A stretch of 64,000 nt of DNA. It comes from Trichostrongylus colubriformis. Its lineage: Eukaryota; Nematoda; Chromadorea; Rhabditida; Trichostrongylidae. Shown piece after piece: positions 29,457 through 41,100 of the stretch. The notes under the pieces were generated by a model. The model was not told the origin of the DNA and made no database searches. It was given only the letters and a program-made list of their open reading frames with translations. The position numbers were made by a program, and so were the translations under genes. How positions within the stretch are numbered: the first letter of the stretch is position 1; every line of letters begins with the position of its first letter. Where the stretch lies: contig OZ022259.1 of the NCBI GenBank assembly GCA_963978905.1, positions 9,920,001-9,984,000 of the forward strand, written 5' to 3'.

Positions 29457-32400
29457 ATGCAGCCATACACGGCTTGCCTTCAAATCAATCGGCTCAAAGT
29501 TCTCATCTGTGGAGACAAACGTGAGTAAGAGTAATTGTAGATGATGGCACTCAAGTCTGAAGTCCATAAAAATTTGGCTCTATCATTTAGAAGTTCAACA
29601 CAGTGATAGAGGCAATGTGCGTCTTAAGGAATTCCAAAAGATGTCATTATCCGAAGAATAGGTGTCTAGGAAGCCTATCTGCCACAAAATTCCTTGCGAA
29701 AACGCCCTTAAGCTGTGGCGGAGGAGGCTTTTTCAGCTCCACCCGCCTTTCTGGCTCGGTCCGCCTCCTAGGGTCGACTTTGCCGAGGAATGACTGAGAT
29801 GTAGAGTGGCGAGCATGATAGCAGGGTGATACTTATCGTATCGTATCAAATGTTACCTTTACCACTGTCTTCAAGTCGCCACTTAAAGACAGCATAAGGG
29901 ATAATAGGTTAAGGAAAATCTCTAAAAGAATTCACTCACACAAAAACTATGGACCTGAGAAGCTTATTTATGGCGAAATCCCAGTCAAGTGGTAAATCCC
30001 AGTGGTGGGGGTAGTTCGGTTGTATCAATCATTCCAATCTTTGATACTGACCGGTGGATGTTTTCACCACAAAAATCGATACGTCATACATCACGTAATT
30101 CCATCTATGCGGCATTAATACGATACGATATGTATTATTCAGCTATCATGCTCACTCCACCCCTAGGTCATTCTTCGGCAAAGTCAACGAGGCGAGGTCT
30201 GTCATCCAAAGGCGTCAGCTGTAACCGCCACGCCATTCCTGTGGCTCGGGGGCGTGCTTTCGAAGCGGACTTCGCCGCAAATAGTCTTCCTATACCGCTA
30301 GTTTCCATTAAGTGACTTCTTCCAGAGATTTCTCAATAATCACATTATCCTTATCACTGTCTTCAAACTAGACCATTGAGGAATTGTTCAAAGTTCGCGA
30401 TTTAGGCGTATCATTCATCTGATCGATACGCATTTTATTCTTTTCACGTGAATCACTTGATCAATATGTATCTTTTTCTTTCCGCCAAAATCGCTCGTGC
30501 TGCGCGAGTCGCGAACTCTGAACAATACCTCAGAGTTTTCGATTGTACATCAGGCGATTTGTCGATCATGAGCAGCTCGGTGTTAGGATCAGTGTGTGTG
30601 CAGATATGACAGCGAATCGCTTCGCGGCGTTTCACTCGCGGCGCCACCAGTACGACTCGCCGTATCGATTGCCCTCGGGAGCTGCGTCACGTCTGCGCTT
30701 CCACTCATGCCACTCTGCCTCGCTTGAAGGCAGCCATGCCGTGCCACTGGCACTCGCACCCGCCGCGCCGCTCGCCGCGGGCGGCCACGCGATTCGCTGT
30801 CATATCCGCGGAAACCCTTAGGATCAAGACATCATTTTCCGTCCACTCATTTTCACCCTACTCACATCCATCTCATCACCCAATCCCTGGTCGCACAATC
30901 GCGTAATCGCTTAGTTGCCTGGTCGGCTAATCGATATGTATCCTTGTCCCGTGTTTTCTCGTCACCTGAATCGTCAGCTCTGAATAATGTTCAACTTAAC
31001 TGAGCATTCAGGTCTCGCCATACAGTTCCAATGTCATCCTTATTGGGTCGGGAGGGGAGAGGGGGGGGGGGGATATTGAAGAATGCTGCACATTCAACTG
31101 TATGCTCTTTCCTAAGCTTAGGGAGAGGCCTACCTCCTCTCTTCCGAAGCTTTAGAGAAAATAGCGGCAGATGTGGAGCACTGTGGGCTGCGATCTCTTC
31201 GGTAAAACCCCACCATTCCTTGTAATCTTGTTCCTGGAATTGTGAACTTGGGTGATGGCGAATCGGTTCTTTGCCTTTGGGCTTGCTGATGCGTGTATTC
31301 CTCTCGAAAATTTATCATCCACCACTGCAATCATCGACATTATCAGCGGCTACTGTAACGTCTTTTTCCTTATTTCACGTTAGCAGATGCACAAGTTCGC
31401 TGATGATGTCATTAACGTTGCCGTGATATACACAACCAGCTCCTCAACGAATTCTGTCATTGGCTTGCTAACCTCTTTTGTGCCGTCTACATCCACAGAA
31501 GAGCATGTCACGTGTTGCGGATAACCACCACACATCACAGATCTACCTGGCCCCGATCAAAACACGGATGCTGCGCATTGGAGCATACGTTCGTCACAGA
31601 TCCTCCTTCTTTCTTCATTTTCTTCCTTCAAAAAATGCATGTCCAAGTTCAATCGCAAATCTCTCATTCTCGAAACCAGAACTCATCATCCTAGCTAGTG
31701 CCACTGAAATCTAGTCAATTGTGTGTGTCTCATTTTTTAGAAGCGATCCAATGCATAGTCTTTAAAAGCACATTCCAGGATTATTGGGATATCACATCTC
31801 CTGCCGTGGATGGATAGTTCGAACCAAGCCACGTAGGCTGTACCTTTACCGAGGCGTGGATGTCAGTTCCTGGAGCGTGCAGAACCAAAGAATCTAGCGC
31901 AACAGCTTGGCCCCGCCCAACCCAGCCGGGGGTGTGCTGCAAGTGTTCCGGTGCCTGGAGTGGGGTCAGGTCACTCAGTAGTGGGTTCACTTCACGAGGA
32001 GATTGGTTTGCTGCCAATTTCAAGATCTTGGCCAGTAGCTGGTCTACCTATGTCGAAGATAAGGGTCGAAGACTAAAGGCAGACCCCCGGCTGAGGTGGG
32101 CGGGGCCGAGCTGTTGCGCTAGATTCTTTGACTCTGCACACCCCAGGAACTGACACCCGCGCCTCGGTAAAGGTACAGCCTACGTGGCTTGGGTCGATCC
32201 ATCCATCCACGGCAGGAGATGTGATATCCTGATAATCCTAGAATCTGCCTTTAAATTCATGCTCTTATTAGACTCTCGCTAACGTCTTCATTTGAGGTGT
32301 CGGTAAAACGTCACTGATACATGCGTTTCGCGATGATTATTTCACGGAGAACGTGCAAGAGACCGGTGAAATGGTCTGTAAAATGCATTACATACAAGAT

Positions 32401-35400
32401 CGTCGAACGCTATTCCAGGTAAACCATGTAGTAGAGAATATTATCGAGAACACCAATCACCGACATCTCGAGGTACACCATGTACATTTTTCGACCACAC
32501 TGGTAGTAGTACGAGTGGTTATAATAGCGAACAGTCACGGTTTTATGTGCTTGATACATAACCAAGACCACTTAGCCATTATTACGTTCACCGGGGCGAA
32601 GGGTATCATGCAGAACGATACTTATCGTGTCGTATTAAAGCCGTGTCTATCAAAATGACGTGGTGCTTGGCGTATAAGCTTTCGTGGTGAAAACGTCCAT
32701 CGGTCAGTATCAAAGATTAGAAAGGATGAAATAATCGAGTTACCCCTAACGCTGCCTTTAAGCACCAAATGCACAGCAAATGAATACACTTCGTACTCCA
32801 TTGTGAATGAACGAAGCGTTACCACCGCTGAACTTGAGAAGTGATAGGCTTCCAAAGGGTTATCAGTTGAGCTAGCTTAGTCCATTTTCATGCTACAGTA
32901 CTATCGTGTTATCCGCGCAGTACTGTGGATAGCTCAACTGGTCGATAAAATGGGCATTCAACTACACCTGTAGTTACCTTCCTTCTTTAGTTTTTCTTGA
33001 TGCCAGCGCTTTGCATGCGTCTGCGGTCTCCACTGAGCTTTCATACTAATGCGATTAGCAGAATAAGGTCAAGGTAGGTTAGGAGGGGAGAGGGAGGTGG
33101 AAGGGAGAGGAGGTGCGACTTCACGTTTCATGGCTCTATCACAACCGCGCACTATTGTTCACAAGCACGAAAAGACGTGACAAACATGGCCATAAGGATA
33201 CGAATTTCAACCTGAACCTGGGGAAAGGAAAGGAGCTTAGAGTGAGTGAACTGCTAGGAAGGCTCTTCAGCAACGCCCTATGCGCTATTGCACGTGTATA
33301 CGACCCGCGACATAGAACGTGAAGTCGCGTTTCCCCGCTGACCCACATTGACCAGCAGAGTAGGCGGAATCAGTAAAATTTGATGATGAATTGGAGATGT
33401 ATCGATCGGAACAATCATGCTCGTGGAATTGTGGAATCCGTGCAATAGGATCAAGTACGTATATGTTGTTCCGACCCGCCCGCTTCAGAACGTATCTAGC
33501 AGTTTCCACGAATTTGCTAATTTCAGGGTGTTCGTCGGGAGAGTCCATATAGGCTGGGTCATGCGAGGAGGCAGCGAAAGAGCCCTTTAGAGAGCAGCCA
33601 AATCACAGTGTAGGCAGCAAAGCATTTTTCGCTTACGGTGACGCTATTCACGTGACGCGGGGATCTACGTAGTCGGACAGGGGTGTGTGCAGATATGACG
33701 GAGAATCGCTTCGCGGCGTCACCGGTACGACTTGCGAAACGATTGCTCTTGGGAGCCCAGCAAAGCGTGGCTGCGTCACCTCTGCGCTTCCACCCATGCC
33801 ACACTGCCTCGCTTTAAGGCTGCCATGCACTGCCACTGGCACTCGCACCCGCCGCGCCGCTCGCCGCGAGCGGCCACGCGATTCTCTGTCATATCTGCAC
33901 ACACCCAGCCTCGAGCGTGTCGCCCTTGTCAATAACTTCTATCGCAGACAATGGAGCAGCCCGGAAAACTTGATGAAACTGATCAAAGGTTTTCACCTTG
34001 GATTGCAGATGGTCGAACTCCACGTTGGACGATTGGTACCACCAGATGCTTCCAACGCCCATGCCATTCTCCTTCTTTTCGACGACGAATCAACAGCGAC
34101 TCTAAACAGGATTAAAGTATACGTGAGTAGATGGACTCTTTTTTCAATTCGCGCCCTCGGACAGTTATGTTGTTTGCACTCCAACTTGTCACTACTACAA
34201 TTTAAAAGGCTTGTTGTCAATTCATATAACATGGATCCTTTATCGGAATTTCCCTCATGGTTTCATGGAAACGTCCACTGAAATCTGAGTTTTTACTTGC
34301 TCCCATACAGCTGTTGTATTTGTTCATTACGAGCCACATGTAAGGTTTCAGATGAAAAAATCGGAGGCCAGCAGAGATAGTTCTCTACAAAGTTTTTCCA
34401 TAACAGGTGAAGGACTGCTCACCTGTGGTTGGCAACTTTGAGCAAATATAAACTTGAAATAACAATAAAATAGAAGACAAAACTCGGCCACGGTGATCTT
34501 GAATTTATGGACCAACCTAATGAGACTGCACTCGGTACTATTTATTTGTCTATTTATTTTATTGCACGGCACGCTGTACGAAAAAAATGTGCTTGTTACT
34601 TCACACAGGAAAGCGTAAAAAGTGTAAGGGGCTCTCTGAATTCATAAAACAGTAGGCTTTGTCAGTGATTGGTTGTTCGAATGAATAAGCATGTTTGAGC
34701 GTTGACGGACAACAGTACGGTGGCGTCGTTTATTCCTGAGCACAGGGGTGAAAAGAGCTTCGCTTTAGGTGGGATAATTCGCTTATGTGCAAAGGGAGGA
34801 CTTTATATAAGGTTGAAAGTGGTTGCTTCCCTGTTCTTTTCCCCTACGCCGAGCTATTGCAATTATGCTCAGTGCACCTGAAACCCTTCGTGCACAATGA
34901 AAAAGCGATATCACAATGTCTATCCAACTTTTGCTCCCCCAAAATCAGCTCGAAACTGATCACAAGCAATGTACGCAATTAATCCATTTCAGTGGTATTC
35001 CAAAATTAACCTCTATTTCTCTCATGTGCCATTATTTCTTGTTCGAACAAAATGTGACTTAAGAAAGGTTAGTTTAATTTTATTCGACCATACACAAAGA
35101 TAAATGACACGATGGGAGGGTCCATAATGGTCACGCCTACCAAAAGTGAAGTTGAATTTAGTCTTTCAATCCCGATCTCGGAGAACGATTAAAAAACTCG
35201 ATGCATGCAGTGCGATATCTTGAATGTTCAGCTAAGCAAATGGTGAGTCCTTGATTTTATGTCCGGATTAATCCTTACCAAATATTGAACGCTACGCCTG
35301 TCTGTAAGTCCGTCCGCCCGTCCCTCCGTCCTCCGGTCTGTCACGAAATTAGGTATTATATTGAAAACGACCTGTGGAGATGGGAACAACTGTGGGATGA

Positions 35401-37902
35401 ATAGGGCATGGGACAAGAAGTGGAGACCACACATGAACCAAGTCGAGCTCCGCCACGATAGGCGGAGCGTGCACCGGAATAATCCGTTTTAAAAGCGAAA
35501 ACGGTTAACGGGATCCGAATGTGTCCCAAACGTGGGGTGAAAATGGATAGGTCAGCGATGAGTTTCAGAAAGTCATGAAAGAGGCCCGCGCATAGTGAGC
35601 GGCCCTAACAACAAAAACTCATGACCAGTTCGTAGCGCAGCCTCGAAACCACGAAAAAATCGTTAGAAATAACCACTGTCTAGGCCATCTTGAGCACACT
35701 CTAAATGAGCGGAGAGCAGGTCACAAGGCGGAGTGTGTTCAATCTGTGTGTACAGTTCATAGAAAAAATCAACTCCGACCGACCTGCTGACGCCCATGGT
35801 ATGACCCGCACAGTAGTGTCCGCCAGCCAACTGGTATATCCCTAGTCCCAGACGAGACTCGAACGCGCACTCCATGCTTTCCGGGCATATGTGCTAATTG
35901 GCACATATGCCCGGAAAGCATGGAGTGCAGGTTCGACTCCCCTCCGAGACCGAATTTTGTCCATATTTTAGCATACTTGTAACAACTTTCGCGGGCTGTG
36001 GCGAAAAACAGCAACTATCAAAAATCAAAACATCAAAGTCAATATCAACTTAAGCCTTCAGCCTCACGGTTCGATGCCTATATTGGCCAACCGGCTCAAC
36101 GCGTTATACGTGTGAGTGGCGATAAGCTACGATGAACATACCGTCCATAAACTGAGTTAATGAAAGGGGTCTCGAGGGTATATCTATGATTTATCTGTAC
36201 TCGGAAAATTGCACATTATAGGAGCTATTGGTTTCACATATTAACAAAATTGTAAGAACGTCATTTTAGAACGGAGTTAAATACGTGTTCCTCGAAACTC
36301 TAGCAGCCCTCAAACCAAAACCCGAAAAGGAACCTGAGGACCCTGAATGTGAGTCTGTCGTGTTCAATATATCGACTTCCGAAAATAGCTGAATGAAACA
36401 CTTCCATTGCAGTCATGTCATTAACACCTCTGGAGGGTGTCGCCGCAGTAATCAGTCGACTTGGAAGTTCTGGTCCCCTGTTGAACGTATGTGTACAGAT
36501 CGACCGTAGTCTGGAAGTCGGTCATCAATCTCGAAGACTTGATTTTTCAGCAAGTTATGGTGAACGCTCGTGAATGTCTAACAAATCCAGCAGCATTTCC
36601 AGAAGTTAAGCAATCGGTAGGATAGAGTGATACCGTCATTACAAAACCGGCGGGTGTGTGCAGATATGACAGCGAATCGCTTCGCGGCGTTTCACTCGCG
36701 GCGCCACCAGTACGACTCGTCGTATCGATTGCTCTTGGGAGCCGGCCGAGCGTGACTGTGTCACGTCTGCTCTTCCGCTCATGCGTCACTGCCTCGCTTG
36801 AAGGCTGCCATGCTCCGCCACTGGCACTTGCACCCGCCGCGCCGCTCACCGCGGGCGGCCACGCGATTCGTTGTCATATCTGCACACACCCCAATACCGG
36901 CTAATGGGCGTATGTCATGTTGCCTTTATACTCTCGCTGCTTCCGTACGACTGCGTCGGATGCGCTACGTTGTACAGCTGGTGCCGTAAAATTATAAAAA
37001 ATCGCCTAAGATCACAAATTTTAGTTAATGCCATAGAAGTGTCAAAAATTATAGAAAACGCATTTTCGCATTTTAATAATTTTTTCGCTAGAAATCGATT
37101 GATTATCGTACGAAAGCGTTTTCCCTGGCGAATCGAACGACTTGCATTTAATTAAAGAACTCACGTCTGAAAGTGAGTTTAGAGATGATTTTTACAGCGT
37201 TTACACGGAGGCGCTGTTTAGGGGAGCAACAAGGAACAGGGTCTTACCTGGAATCTCAGGATCTTTAGAATTCCTTTAAAACTTAGATTAGGTCCTTAAA
37301 TTATGTCTGCGGAAAGATTGCGTCGCCAGCTCATCAAATTTTTGAGAGATTTTTTTTCAAACTTGGAAAAATGGCCTAGCACCGATTTTACGAAATCAAG
37401 AAACACTTTATAGCATTAACTGTTATTTGTGATCTGGTCCCGCTTCGTTCATTTCATATGACATATTGTACTAGAACCAGATAACAGATAACTGCCAAAA
37501 AGTTTGGTGAAGGACAAGAAATTTCTGAAAAAGAAGGTAGAAAACGAGAAAAAAACGTGAGATGGCCCTAGCAGCATATAAAGCGCGACCAGGGTCATTT
37601 GCGCAGTTCTGTGCGACAGCTCAACTGGTTGAATAATACTGATTGTTGAAGTTCATTTTCAGATTGATTCGTACCTGCCGTTCAGCATCTTTGGCACAAC
37701 CCCAGCAGTCACGGCCAAACTGGAGCAAAAGCAGTTGTCACCAGCGTCACCGCATACCCGCAGTGATCACACAGCAGTTCAAAAATCACCAGACAACAGT
37801 CGACCGAAGGCCGATGAGCAACCCACGGAGGACATGAAGACGGCTATTGAACCACCACTGGAAGAGCAGAAGCCACACGATGGTGACGAAAACGACAACT
37901 AA
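29457..37902 (+). CDS. Atypical Ras/Rho-superfamily GTPase with C-terminal extension
   Basis: Nine exons: 29457-29520, 32297-32418, 34009-34122, 34993-35067, 35162-35242, 36270-36348, 36413-36486, 36551-36616 and 37663-37902 (TAA). They total exactly 915 bases, 304 residues, and every phase matches. G1 is GDKRVGKT (residues 19-26), a P-loop. G4 is TKCD (119-122) and G5 is ECSAK (146-150), within YLECSAKQM as in Rho/Ras proteins. Where DTAGQ should be, the junction reads VELHVGRL (64-71), so the switch-II Asp and catalytic Gln are missing. After a C-terminal helix (about 153-166) comes a ~130-residue acidic/Pro/Lys/Glu-rich tail ending in DGDENDN, with no CAAX lipidation motif. It may bind nucleotide without normal hydrolysis; that is inference. 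The acceptor before exon 2 is weak (TTTGAG) but supplies the P-loop. The gene is convergent with the CHP gene. Confidence 0.85.
30592..30817. mobile_element. Mutator-like MITE, subfamily A, perfect TTAGGATCA duplication
   Basis: Left end GTGTGTGTGCAGATATGACA with interior GCGAATCGCTTCGCGGCG; right end GCGATTCGCTGTCATATCC, slightly decayed. TTAGGATCA flanks both sides exactly (30,583-30,591 and 30,818-30,826). It lies in GTPase intron 1. Confidence 0.9.
31061..31072 (+). repeat. G-run
   Basis: Twelve consecutive G follow a G-rich stretch (GGGAGGGGAGAG). Such runs are prone to length error in assembly. A ten-base G-run also occurs at about 20,956-20,965 in nit-1 intron 4. Confidence 0.6.
31761..32254. 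mobile_element. Long foldback element, about 494 bases
   Basis: Arms of some 180 bases are inverted copies: GGATTATTGGGATATCACAT at the left and ATGTGATATCCTGATAATCC at the right. The arms continue through TACCTTTACCGAGGCG and AATCTAGCGCAACAGCTTGG. No clear target duplication was found. It ends 42 bases before GTPase exon 2. Confidence 0.75.
33681..33906. mobile_element. Mutator-like MITE, subfamily A
   Basis: Inverted ends GGGTGTGTGCAGATATGACG and CATATCTGCACACACCC, with the family interior GAATCGCTTCGCGGCG. No duplication is recognisable at the flanks. It precedes GTPase exon 3 by about 100 bases and reads open in the same frame, which creates a false 198-codon frame. Confidence 0.75.
35290..35893 (-). 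mobile_element. tRNA-derived SINE
   Basis: Reading the minus strand: a tRNA 3' half (ATTAGCACATATGCCCGGAA, GTTCGAGTCTCGT), then GGGATATACCAGTTGGCTGG, an unmatched body, TATAATACCTAATTTCGTGA and a pyrimidine/purine tail of GACGGACGG type units. The same body and tail occur without a head at 24,544. It lies in GTPase intron 5. Confidence 0.65.
35897..35951 (+). pseudogene. 3' half of a tRNA-like sequence, head-to-head with the SINE head
   Basis: GGCACATATGCCCGGAAAGC, T arm GCAGGTTCGACTCCCCT and acceptor end CCGAGACC. The anticodon stem TATGC/GCATG pairs around the loop CCGGAAA (GGA in the anticodon position, C at 33). The D arm and 5' acceptor strand are absent, replaced by an inverted copy of the same half ending at 35,894. 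Confidence 0.6.
35958..36170 (+). repeat. Spacer block of the tRNA-like repeat, copy 2
   Basis: Matches the minus strand of 17,425-17,650: AACTTTCGCGGGCTGTGGC, CACGGTTCGATGCCTATATT, TTGGCCAACCGGCTCAACGC and a terminal GAAAGGGGT. In the other copy that terminus runs directly into a tRNA-like sequence; here it runs into GGTCTCGAGGG, a decayed start. Confidence 0.55.
36651..36891. mobile_element. Mutator-like MITE, subfamily A, CAA(A/T)ACCGG duplication
   Basis: Inverted ends GGGTGTGTGCAGATATGACA and TGTCATATCTGCACACACC. Flanks CAAAACCGG and CAATACCGG agree at 8 of 9 positions. It lies 34 bases into GTPase intron 8. Confidence 0.85.
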
Positions 37903-38124: not shown

Positions 38125-41100
38125 TTATGTCAGAAAACGAAACGACATCTTCTGTTCGATGTCCGTTTTTTCCATTGCCTGAAAAGTGTTCCTTTCAGGA
38201 CAACTGCCACTGATCATGTTCCGACACATACCGTACTTACAAATTGGACAACTCATCTCCACTGATCTATAGCTCACTATTTTACTGGTTTTCGTGATGT
38301 TTTTAATTGAAGAAAACTAATTTATTCAATGCATTTTCACGTGTTCGAAAATCAGTGATGACTGCGCTACACGTCAAATACTCTCAACACCTAATGCCAA
38401 TTTCTGCGTCTCTGAAATTTCCCTCATTTGGAGATGAATCGTTTCCTTGGCCTCAATGTGGTGGGGAGTAAAGAAGTGGCTAAGTGGGGTGTGCTTCATG
38501 TAAACGCGAACACATGGCCCCACAGTCAAGGATAGGTTCTCACTGATCGACACCACATTCTACTCTGAAGTATTTGTGCACTATTTCTTCGAAGGACTCC
38601 CACAGAGTCAGCTCACTGCGGCCTGTGCGGAATGAGCTGGTACTGTGGGATTTCTTTGAAACCGGCACCGGCAACTCGGGCTGATGGCGCTGCGAGTGCC
38701 GCAGACGGCTGAGACGCTGCCGCAAAGCTCTGTTTGAAGTATTTGAGTAGTATTTCTTCGAGGGACTCCTACAGAGTCAGCTCAGTGCGGCCTGAGCGGA
38801 ATGAGCTGGTACTGTGGAAATTGTTTAGTACCGGCACCGGCAACTCGGGCTGATGGCGCTGCGAGTGCCGCAGACGGCTGATGACGCTGCCGCAAAGCGA
38901 AGGCCCGGAAGACGATAGAGGGAAGTTTGTGCAGCCTTCACACCTTTGGAGGAGAAAACCAACCGTCTAGCTAGTCCACCCCTACGATCTCAAATGTTTG
39001 ATTCCATAGTTCTACCTGAATTCTACTACGCAGCCGAGACATGGGTGAATAGTGGGACCACGTCAAAGGCCCCGACGGTAACACGCAGCGAGCTTAAACG
39101 CTGCCTCCTACGCTTCAACCGGTTTATATCGAGCCGAATTGTGGCTCAGACTGAGGCATGGTGTATCTCTTGCGTGATCCGATGGAACACATAACGAAAG
39201 CTGATTGGCGACAGGCCGGCCTTATCGATTCTGACGACAGGTACACAAAAAGGACGGTTGAGTACATTCATAGGACTTCCACGGTTGAAGGGAGATCCAC
39301 TGGAATAAGGGGTGATGGGATCAGGCAAGAAAAACGGCTGCAATACCGTCGATTGATAAATCATATCGATGTCTTTATCGGTACTTATATTGTCCGTGGA
39401 TGGCAATCGCATGGAACAATGGAATGCTTTATTGCTGGCGCTTGCACGTCGGGTGAAGTCGAGCTGTGTAAGGTATAAGGTGAGGAGAACAAATCTTACA
39501 TTACAAAATTCGACGAATGTGATGCAACCATCGCCATCCTTGTCAGCTTCCCTCATCGTACGATCAGCGATCGAGTTCACTTGTTCTTCTGGAACATTAG
39601 CGCCGATCATCATCTGTAATTGCGTAGGTTTAGCTGAAAGCAGCAGGAGCGAAGATTTGCACGCTCGTAGGAAGCGAAATGAGAAGCGCTCAGAGTGCAG
39701 AATCCTGATATATAAACCAGTAACTTTGAGTTCTTGTCGGTATTTAGAGCACCTGATGATGTGAACATGTGTGATAGTACAATCATACATAAACAGTATT
39801 CATTGCTTTACTAATACTGAAATCATCCGAGATTATCCCAACAACTTATAGCTAAGAATGAAGTGTGTGATTTAACTTGTCGTATGGGTTAATCTTCTAT
39901 TATACGAACCACTAGATTTGTGTGTCTGTTTGTGGATCGGTTTCTGTGTAGGTTTGTCGGTGGGTTTGTCTGTGGGTTTGTTGGTATATCTGTCTGTCCG
40001 CAAGCGAGTAATTGTGATTAGGGAATGACAGAGCAAAACAATCGTTCTATGAAAGGAGAAACAGACGGATGTTGAAGAGTCATTGTAGGGCATATTATCG
40101 AAGTGGTAGCACCTTCCACTTATATATATGAACACATTTTATGCAATCTCACCGTCATCCTACGGTGTGCTGAATGCGCACTATGATGTCGGCACTTTGA
40201 GATGGCGTGCAGGTACCCTGGGTTATCGGTGGACCAGTGCCGTTCGGAGTGAACCGATCACACAGTGGGTAGTTCTTCGAATGTAATCAACTACAATCTT
40301 TTTGACAAGTCATGGTCGGCTCAGACAGCTATCATAAAGTGAGCAGAGGACGTAAGCGGATGGTGAACTTTACCATCACAGAGTACACTCTCCGATTTCT
40401 GTGGCCAATGGGTAGCACCAATAGACGTGTGGATAAGTGTAGATTCGATGAAGTTGCCAATGCCCCGCGACGAGCGAGGTACATCACGTAGCCAAAGCTC
40501 TGAAGAAATTCTAGTAGGTGTCGAACTCGAGTCAATCGTCGACGCGCAGCTGAGCTTGTAGCAATGGTTGCAGTTGTCGTTGATGTTGTCTTCGTGATCG
40601 GAGCAATTGCAGCCAAGGTAAGACAAAGTGATAATGTAGCTTGTGGATTTGTGGGTGGGGCCGGGTTTAGTTGAAGGGCACGGCGAATGCTTCCAGCAGC
40701 TGGGATGCTGTTTCCATTGGTGCACAGGGAAGTAGATGGTACACCTAGCGTTTCCAGACGTTTCTTTGAAGCATAACGTCGTACTGAGCGTGTCCGTGTC
40801 GGAATAGAAGGCGGTCAAAAGCCCATCGCGGTTGTCCGGAGCGGGTCTCTGGCATGGACGAGATGGTCCCGCTTAAATTTTCTGGACTTAGTTCCATGTC
40901 GGAGATTGAACTGCTCCTCAATCTCACAAGGGAAGGTATTTTACTTCCCATGGAACTTTGAAATGAGACTCGGGGGATCGATAGAGCTTCGAACGGAGAT
41001 TATAACTGTGGAAACCAAAATCGCTACCAGGCATTCTGAAGCGAGTTACGATGGGCCAAAGTTTGCCTGTGACTTGCCTGACATCTCATTGGCGAGGCAC

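Follow-up and report, generated by a model that had tools for sequence, protein, structure and literature searches.

What is left of a small GTPase when its switch II is missing, and is a gene that encodes such a protein real? This question is raised by a locus of the nematode Trichostrongylus colubriformis, which lies within 64,000 nucleotides of contig OZ022259.1 (assembly GCA_963978905.1, positions 9,920,001 to 9,984,000, forward strand; we call this whole stretch the window, and all coordinates below are counted in it). The locus is a real, conserved working gene of a nematode family that occurs in strongylids, Heterorhabditis and Mesorhabditis. In our opinion, its best reading is a Rho-like pseudoGTPase family of Rhabditina, and we find it fairly probable, judging from sequence, that the protein is a Rho-like scaffold with a nine-residue deletion at G3, which would hold a guanine nucleotide without hydrolysing it and without switching.

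The gene model is established. The gene lies on the plus strand and has nine exons separated by eight introns, all of them GT-AG; 915 nucleotides encode 304 amino acids and a stop codon. The original prediction, made from the letters alone, had proposed nine exons and 304 codons, and we recovered the same coordinates, splice sites and intact frame; the P-loop GDKRVGKT, TKCD and ECSAK that it read in the product are all present. All nine exons were matched by tblastn of seven homologues, and P0001 from Haemonchus contortus alone matches all nine; two Mesorhabditis queries matched exon 2 only. Two details have to be corrected: the part after the G domain, given as about 150 residues, measures 136-139, and a tenth exon was absent from the nine-exon model. 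The features are the following.

29457-29520, plus strand: exon 1, from the start codon to midway through the P-loop (GDK); tblastn match from P0001, P0002 and P0007.
32297-32418, plus strand: exon 2, remainder of the P-loop (VGKT), alpha 1, switch I (Phe37, Thr44), beta 2 and the onset of beta 3 (LFQ); tblastn.
34009-34122, plus strand: exon 3, remainder of beta 3, shortened switch II region and beta 4; tblastn and alignment.
34012-34035, plus strand: VELHVGRL at the position of DTAGQE, nine residues shorter than in Rho proteins, within exon 3; alignment.
34993-35067, plus strand: exon 4, WYSKINLYFSHVPLFLVRTKCDLRK, including the G4 motif TKCD (35047-35058); tblastn.
35162-35242, plus strand: exon 5, G5 motif ECSAK (35222-35236), no Rho insert ahead of G5; tblastn.
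36270-36348, plus strand: exon 6, final helix of the G domain and onset of the linker; tblastn.
36413-36486, plus strand: exon 7, first conserved stretch of the tail, GVAAVISRLGSSGPLLN.
36551-36616, plus strand: exon 8, conserved tail stretch QVMVNARECLTNPAAFPEVKQS.
37663-37902, plus strand: exon 9, conserved IDSYLPFSIFGTTP, followed by a polar, poorly conserved tail and the isoform A stop codon; tblastn.
38199-38272, plus strand: alternative exon 10, joined to a donor after 37882 within exon 9; C-terminus of isoform B (322 amino acids), ending in GQLPLIMFRHIPYLQIGQLISTDL; the same end in P0003 and a similar one in P0002.

Two side observations concern exon 3. The middle copy of an intron repeat (see below) reads into it; only one stop-to-stop frame in the window is longer than the resulting one, 33673-34281 (202 amino acids), from which an open reading frame finder would call a chimera of repeat and exon. 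Further, the homologue models P0008, P0009 and P0010 begin at one shared Met in this exon.

The central observation is a loss common to the relatives, and this is also established. Where DTAGQE would be expected the protein reads VELHVGRL, without a DxxG at switch II, just as the prediction had it. The window protein was aligned with 19 relatives; 16 of the 20 rows cover the region (P0015, P0018, P0020 and P0123 do not), and DxxG or GQ stands at G3 in none of them, so that a look at orthologues in other clade V nematodes, which had been suggested as a check, finds the same loss of switch II there. Counted from xELH at the close of beta 3 up to beta 4, each of the 14 strongylid rows has 13 residues and each of the two Mesorhabditis rows 14, versus 22 in all 94 measurable sequences among 100 Rho-type matches (P0021-P0120; six were not matched by the pattern); DTAG is present in 99 of these 100. 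Compared with Rho proteins nine residues are deleted (eight in Mesorhabditis), and the alignment gap sits on WDTAGQEEF. The His of VELH is replaced by Arg in P0122, and near the G3 position the two Mesorhabditis rows, and only those, read DNWD and EDWE. Provided that there was a single loss, G3 would already have been missing from the last ancestor shared by Mesorhabditis and the strongylids.

The retention of the other motifs is no less firmly established. Most covering rows have GxxxxGKT, [TS]KCD and ECSAK unbroken, the exceptions being P0013 (P-loop absent from the model), P0007 (extra residues in the P-loop) and P0122 (ECSAQ). When the window protein is compared with the two Mesorhabditis relatives, identity is 16/17 and 15/17 across G1, G4 and G5, versus 37/133 and 37/135 in the remainder of the G domain (p 1.4e-7 and 1.7e-6, one-sided Fisher test). 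In switch I, Phe37 and Thr44 stand at Rho spacing in strongylids, with an invariance of 90% or more across a mixed alignment of 80 sequences. It seems reasonable to suggest that the nucleotide-holding parts are under selection and that the gamma-phosphate-sensing and -cleaving part has been lost.

As for kinship, the label Ras/Rho-like can be narrowed. Pfam Ras (PF00071) matches residues 14-165 with E 2.8e-19 and 69.7 bits (cut-off 21.6), and Roc was also matched; with the Ras profile the Mesorhabditis relatives score 46.9 and 51.7 bits and a short Heterorhabditis piece, P0020, scores 17.3. NCBIfam small_GTP was matched by five of eight family members at E <= 0.01, the match of P0001 being under the cut-off of that model. 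The full set of five G motifs is not found, as G3 is absent from every covering row. By single sequence the closest solved relatives are Rho GTPases with RhoG on top (E 7.2e-13; best 60 of 639 matches), while in a profile search RhoD, Rho1 and RhoG lead and Rab12 is eighth, about 6 bits under the top (best 60 of 635); the first annotated matches beyond the family are Rho3 (best 120 of 655). A G fold is predicted by AlphaFold from 80 rows (15 family and 65 Rho-type, out of 120 proteins), with a block-mean predicted local distance difference test (pLDDT) score of 79-96 across the G domain; a model from eight family rows only had a mean pLDDT of 37 and was unusable. In a fold comparison of the predicted model ordinary Rho GTPases are among the best matches, though the fold does not separate Rho from Rab, since Rab2A and Sec4 score within 1 Z of Rho and Rac. 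Fungal Rho3 and human RhoG, RhoD and RhoA are, among the matches listed, the best by sequence beyond the family, and they are also among the best by fold.

However, ordinary Rho GTPases have DTAGQE and the Rho insert, and the worm family has neither: no insert helix separates G4 from G5, TKCDLRK directly abutting SFNPDLG (the P0010 model alone has 14 additional residues there, at the position of intron 4, and Mesorhabditis has two). Ordinary Rho GTPases also have a prenylated C-terminus. The claim that there is no CAAX box holds for both C-termini, isoform A ending in DENDN and isoform B in STDL. Because both the insert and the CAAX box are missing, we do not file the protein as a Rho GTPase, although of the two names offered Rho-like is the one that the best matches favour. 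We also considered two other affiliations. The G domains of AGAP/centaurin-gamma proteins are likewise not known to have DTAGQ and are followed by PH and ArfGAP domains; neither domain is among the five Pfam matches at E <= 1, and we rejected this candidate. RGK kinship came into consideration through DNWD and EDWE in Mesorhabditis, which we take to resemble the RGK motif (RGK proteins have DxWE at G3, together with a C-terminal motif of their own). The best matches listed are Rho and Rab, and the RGK name is absent from the best 60 of 639 and the best 60 of 635, although such kinship may still exist.

The family has been seen in nematodes only, in agreement with the original prediction: every named member is a nematode. 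Among 5.8 billion proteins searched, 13 matched at E <= 0.01, and 12 of these come from strongylids; the thirteenth, P0002, has its tail in common with the Heligmosomoides polygyrus protein P0011. P0001 of H. contortus is 73% identical to the window protein over 100% of its length, and P0003, from T. colubriformis itself, begins at window residue 101 and differs in one residue ahead of its divergent C-terminal end. The relatives from this search include Necator, Nippostrongylus, Cylicocyclus, Dictyocaulus, Angiostrongylus and three Ancylostoma; a first profile search adds Haemonchus placei, Cooperia, Ostertagia, Strongylus, Heterorhabditis and Mesorhabditis belari, and a second one Oesophagostomum and Mesorhabditis spiculigera. 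Relatives are now known from 18 nematode species besides T. colubriformis. Databanks call them "hypothetical protein", "Ras family protein" or "GTP-binding domain protein", or give them names of unrelated domains. Small GTPases rank below the family rows, and those with a family in their name are Rho, for the most part fungal Rho3 (best 120 of 655 matches). No Caenorhabditis relative is among 22 matches at E <= 1e-4 (2299 candidates scored), where a highly diverged one could escape, and no such name is among the best 120 of 655 matches (the 7990 candidates with most shared words scored).

How might such a protein work? The nine-residue deletion would have taken out the G3/DxxG loop, and with this loop the protein has lost the Asp linked to Mg, the Gly that senses the gamma-phosphate and the catalytic Gln. 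With the P-loop, the guanine-reading motif and the SAK motif retained, GDP or GTP could be held near-permanently as a structural cofactor; the gamma-phosphate would not be sensed, GTP would not be hydrolysed and no switching would take place. The protein would then act as a constitutive docking or interaction surface, and its location and partners may be set by the conserved tail block and the alternative C-termini, and not by lipid anchoring or GTP cycling. That it is a constitutively nucleotide-loaded scaffold is what we infer, and the conservation of G1, G4 and G5 favours it.

The tail block, GVAAVISRLGSSGPLLNQVMVNARECLTNPAAFPEVKQSIDSYLPFSIFGTTP in the window protein, is conserved in the covering strongylid rows, with gaps in several gene models, and is recognisable in Mesorhabditis as WNPDCFPATKNTIHSYIPF. 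It has no Pfam match and is probably helical; the sequence downstream of it is polar and poorly conserved. An amphipathic membrane helix was considered for the tail, but 18-residue hydrophobic moments of just 0.09-0.39 make no strong case for one. Isoform B ends in GQLISTDL, as does P0003, and P0002 has a similar end (GQLVFTCL), whereas the C-terminus of P0011 is the unspliced form (DEWEC). The ends GQLISTDL and GQLVFTCL both read T-x-L, which, as a guess, we take for a possible PDZ ligand. A fuller version of our proposal is that a Rho-derived domain had its whole DxxG loop excised while its pocket was kept by selection, the nucleotide becoming a permanent structural cofactor, and that the resulting worm-specific scaffold owes its location to a helical tail and alternative C-termini, one of them a possible PDZ ligand, and not to lipid; this may be right or wrong with about equal chance.

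Among the classes of Stiegler and Boggon (PMC5593906), the nearest is most likely class (ii), Rnd-like, in which nucleotide is bound without catalysis. Rnd proteins have GTP permanently bound and do not hydrolyse it (PMC5593906), and RhoH is a Rho protein with an altered G3 (PMC13236570). As described there, Rnd1-3 and RhoH share with the worm family a Rho-type G domain, a sequence altered at or near switch II/G3 and a lack of hydrolysis, which for the worm family is our presumption; they differ in that residues around G3 are changed, not deleted nine at a time. The worm family further differs from them in having no CAAX box, no Rho insert, a conserved tail block and two C-termini. The dynein light intermediate chain (LIC) is similar in that a Ras-like domain is used as a structural part, and human LIC1 binds GDP, perhaps just for stability as its authors propose; metazoan LIC, however, is stated to retain the canonical motifs (PMC4359372). 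EhRabX10 and EhRabX3, pseudoRabs of Entamoeba, are likewise small GTPases of a parasite with broken G motifs, but EhRabX10 has a substituted G3 (DTQDME), no switch I and altered G4 and G5, whereas the worm family has kept G4 and G5 and deleted G3 (PMC8514894). Engineered mini-Gs, in which part of switch II is replaced by two glycines or switch III is deleted, is a laboratory protein and a different case from a natural family (PMC5181381).

Several points weigh against our interpretation. The two Mesorhabditis relatives belong to one genus and count as one observation in the motif-retention test; G-motif residues are the best preserved ones in any small GTPase anyway; and in switch I, Angiostrongylus (P0013) has Ala for the Thr, which Mesorhabditis has not retained either. 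The chief rival is a class (i) pseudoGTPase like CENP-M, with a nucleotide-free pocket and a fold serving as a protein-protein interface, which we consider unlikely but deserving of attention. G3 is gone and some members have lost the switch I Thr, and CENP-M, a metazoan protein not found in fungi, drives kinetochore assembly with a small GTPase fold that has a highly divergent switch II and lacks switch I and the P-loop glycines (PMC4080450). However, CENP-M binds no nucleotide, whereas the worm family retains G1, G4 and G5, and these are much better kept than the remaining domain in distant relatives; the motifs of CENP-M and of the p190RhoGAP pG domains are described as degraded (PMC4080450, PMC5593906).

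Distinctly less probable is a GTPase that still cycles, another residue or a partner having replaced the DxxG loop. Most rows have an intact P-loop, G4 and G5, the switch I Thr is present in strongylids other than Angiostrongylus P0013, and DNWD and EDWE near G3 in Mesorhabditis are, we presume, reminiscent of the RGK motif. There are also precedents, as RGK proteins have diverged G motifs and are placed in class (iii), with activity retained (PMC5593906), and EhRabX3, which lacks G2, is termed a functionally active hydrolase (PMC8514894). On the other hand, the loop has been deleted rather than substituted, and no replacement is conserved across the family, given the Arg that P0122 has for the His of VELH.

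It is very improbable that the deletion is an artefact of the gene model and that a missed exon carries the loop. Intron 2 does span 1.6 kb, and several of the homologue models (e.g. P0005, P0007, P0011 and P0013) are damaged, which could make one suspect this. Yet exon 3 begins at codon 63, VELH is codons 64-67 and beta 4 follows in the same exon; because the gap lies inside exon 3, a skipped exon does not explain it. All 16 covering rows concur, among them P0002 (354 amino acids), which must come from a spliced transcript, as its contig of 1,584 nucleotides leaves no room for the kilobase introns of the window gene. No homologue supplies an extra exon with DxxG, and we rejected the idea. Least credible of all is a decaying copy in T. 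colubriformis, for which the three repeat copies with inverted ends and the other inverted repeats in its introns might be cited, because the frame and every splice site are preserved, full-length identity to H. contortus is 73% and full-length orthologues keep their frame.

If the preferred reading, a nucleotide-holding scaffold without the loop, is correct, it concerns a small but growing group, the pseudoGTPases. Rnd and RhoH, as described, bind nucleotide with switch II changed, not excised (PMC5593906, PMC13236570). The kind is already known, but deletion of the DxxG loop with an otherwise conserved pocket is apparently new: in the open-licence literature, by titles and abstract openings, we found no publication on this family or on one with that combination. 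With a conserved loop-less family one could ask whether a small G domain is able to hold nucleotide as a mere structural part. Many worms that bear the family parasitise livestock and people; Mesorhabditis is free-living, and with two relatives there such testing could be done safely. As none was found in Caenorhabditis within the scope of our searches, the family may have escaped gene lists drawn up for the model worm.

The introns and the surroundings of the gene deserve a brief description. Three copies of one short repeat lie in introns 1, 2 and 8 (30594-30817, 33681-33906 and 36652-36891); it has inverted ends of 35-38 nucleotides (GGGTGTGTGCAGATATGAC...GTCATATCTGCACACACCC), two copies are 85% and 87% like the reference over 150 nucleotides, and by its looks it is a transposon family resembling miniature inverted-repeat transposable elements. 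Intron 1 also holds a foldback-like inverted repeat (31761-31948 and 32068-32255) with arms of 188 nucleotides, 88% complementary and 119 nucleotides apart. A hairpin at 35845-35950 has two 53-nucleotide arms, 85% complementary, and no loop; it contains GGTTCGACTC, which presumably resembles the T-loop of a transfer RNA (tRNA). ARAGORN found no tRNA in the window, and the hairpin may be a tRNA-derived inverted repeat. Finally, on the minus strand, an open reading frame at 39146-39799 with an EF-hand exon (Pfam EF-hand_1, 2.3e-6) belongs to a neighbouring gene; among solved structures it matches calcineurin B subunits and calcineurin B homologous proteins best.
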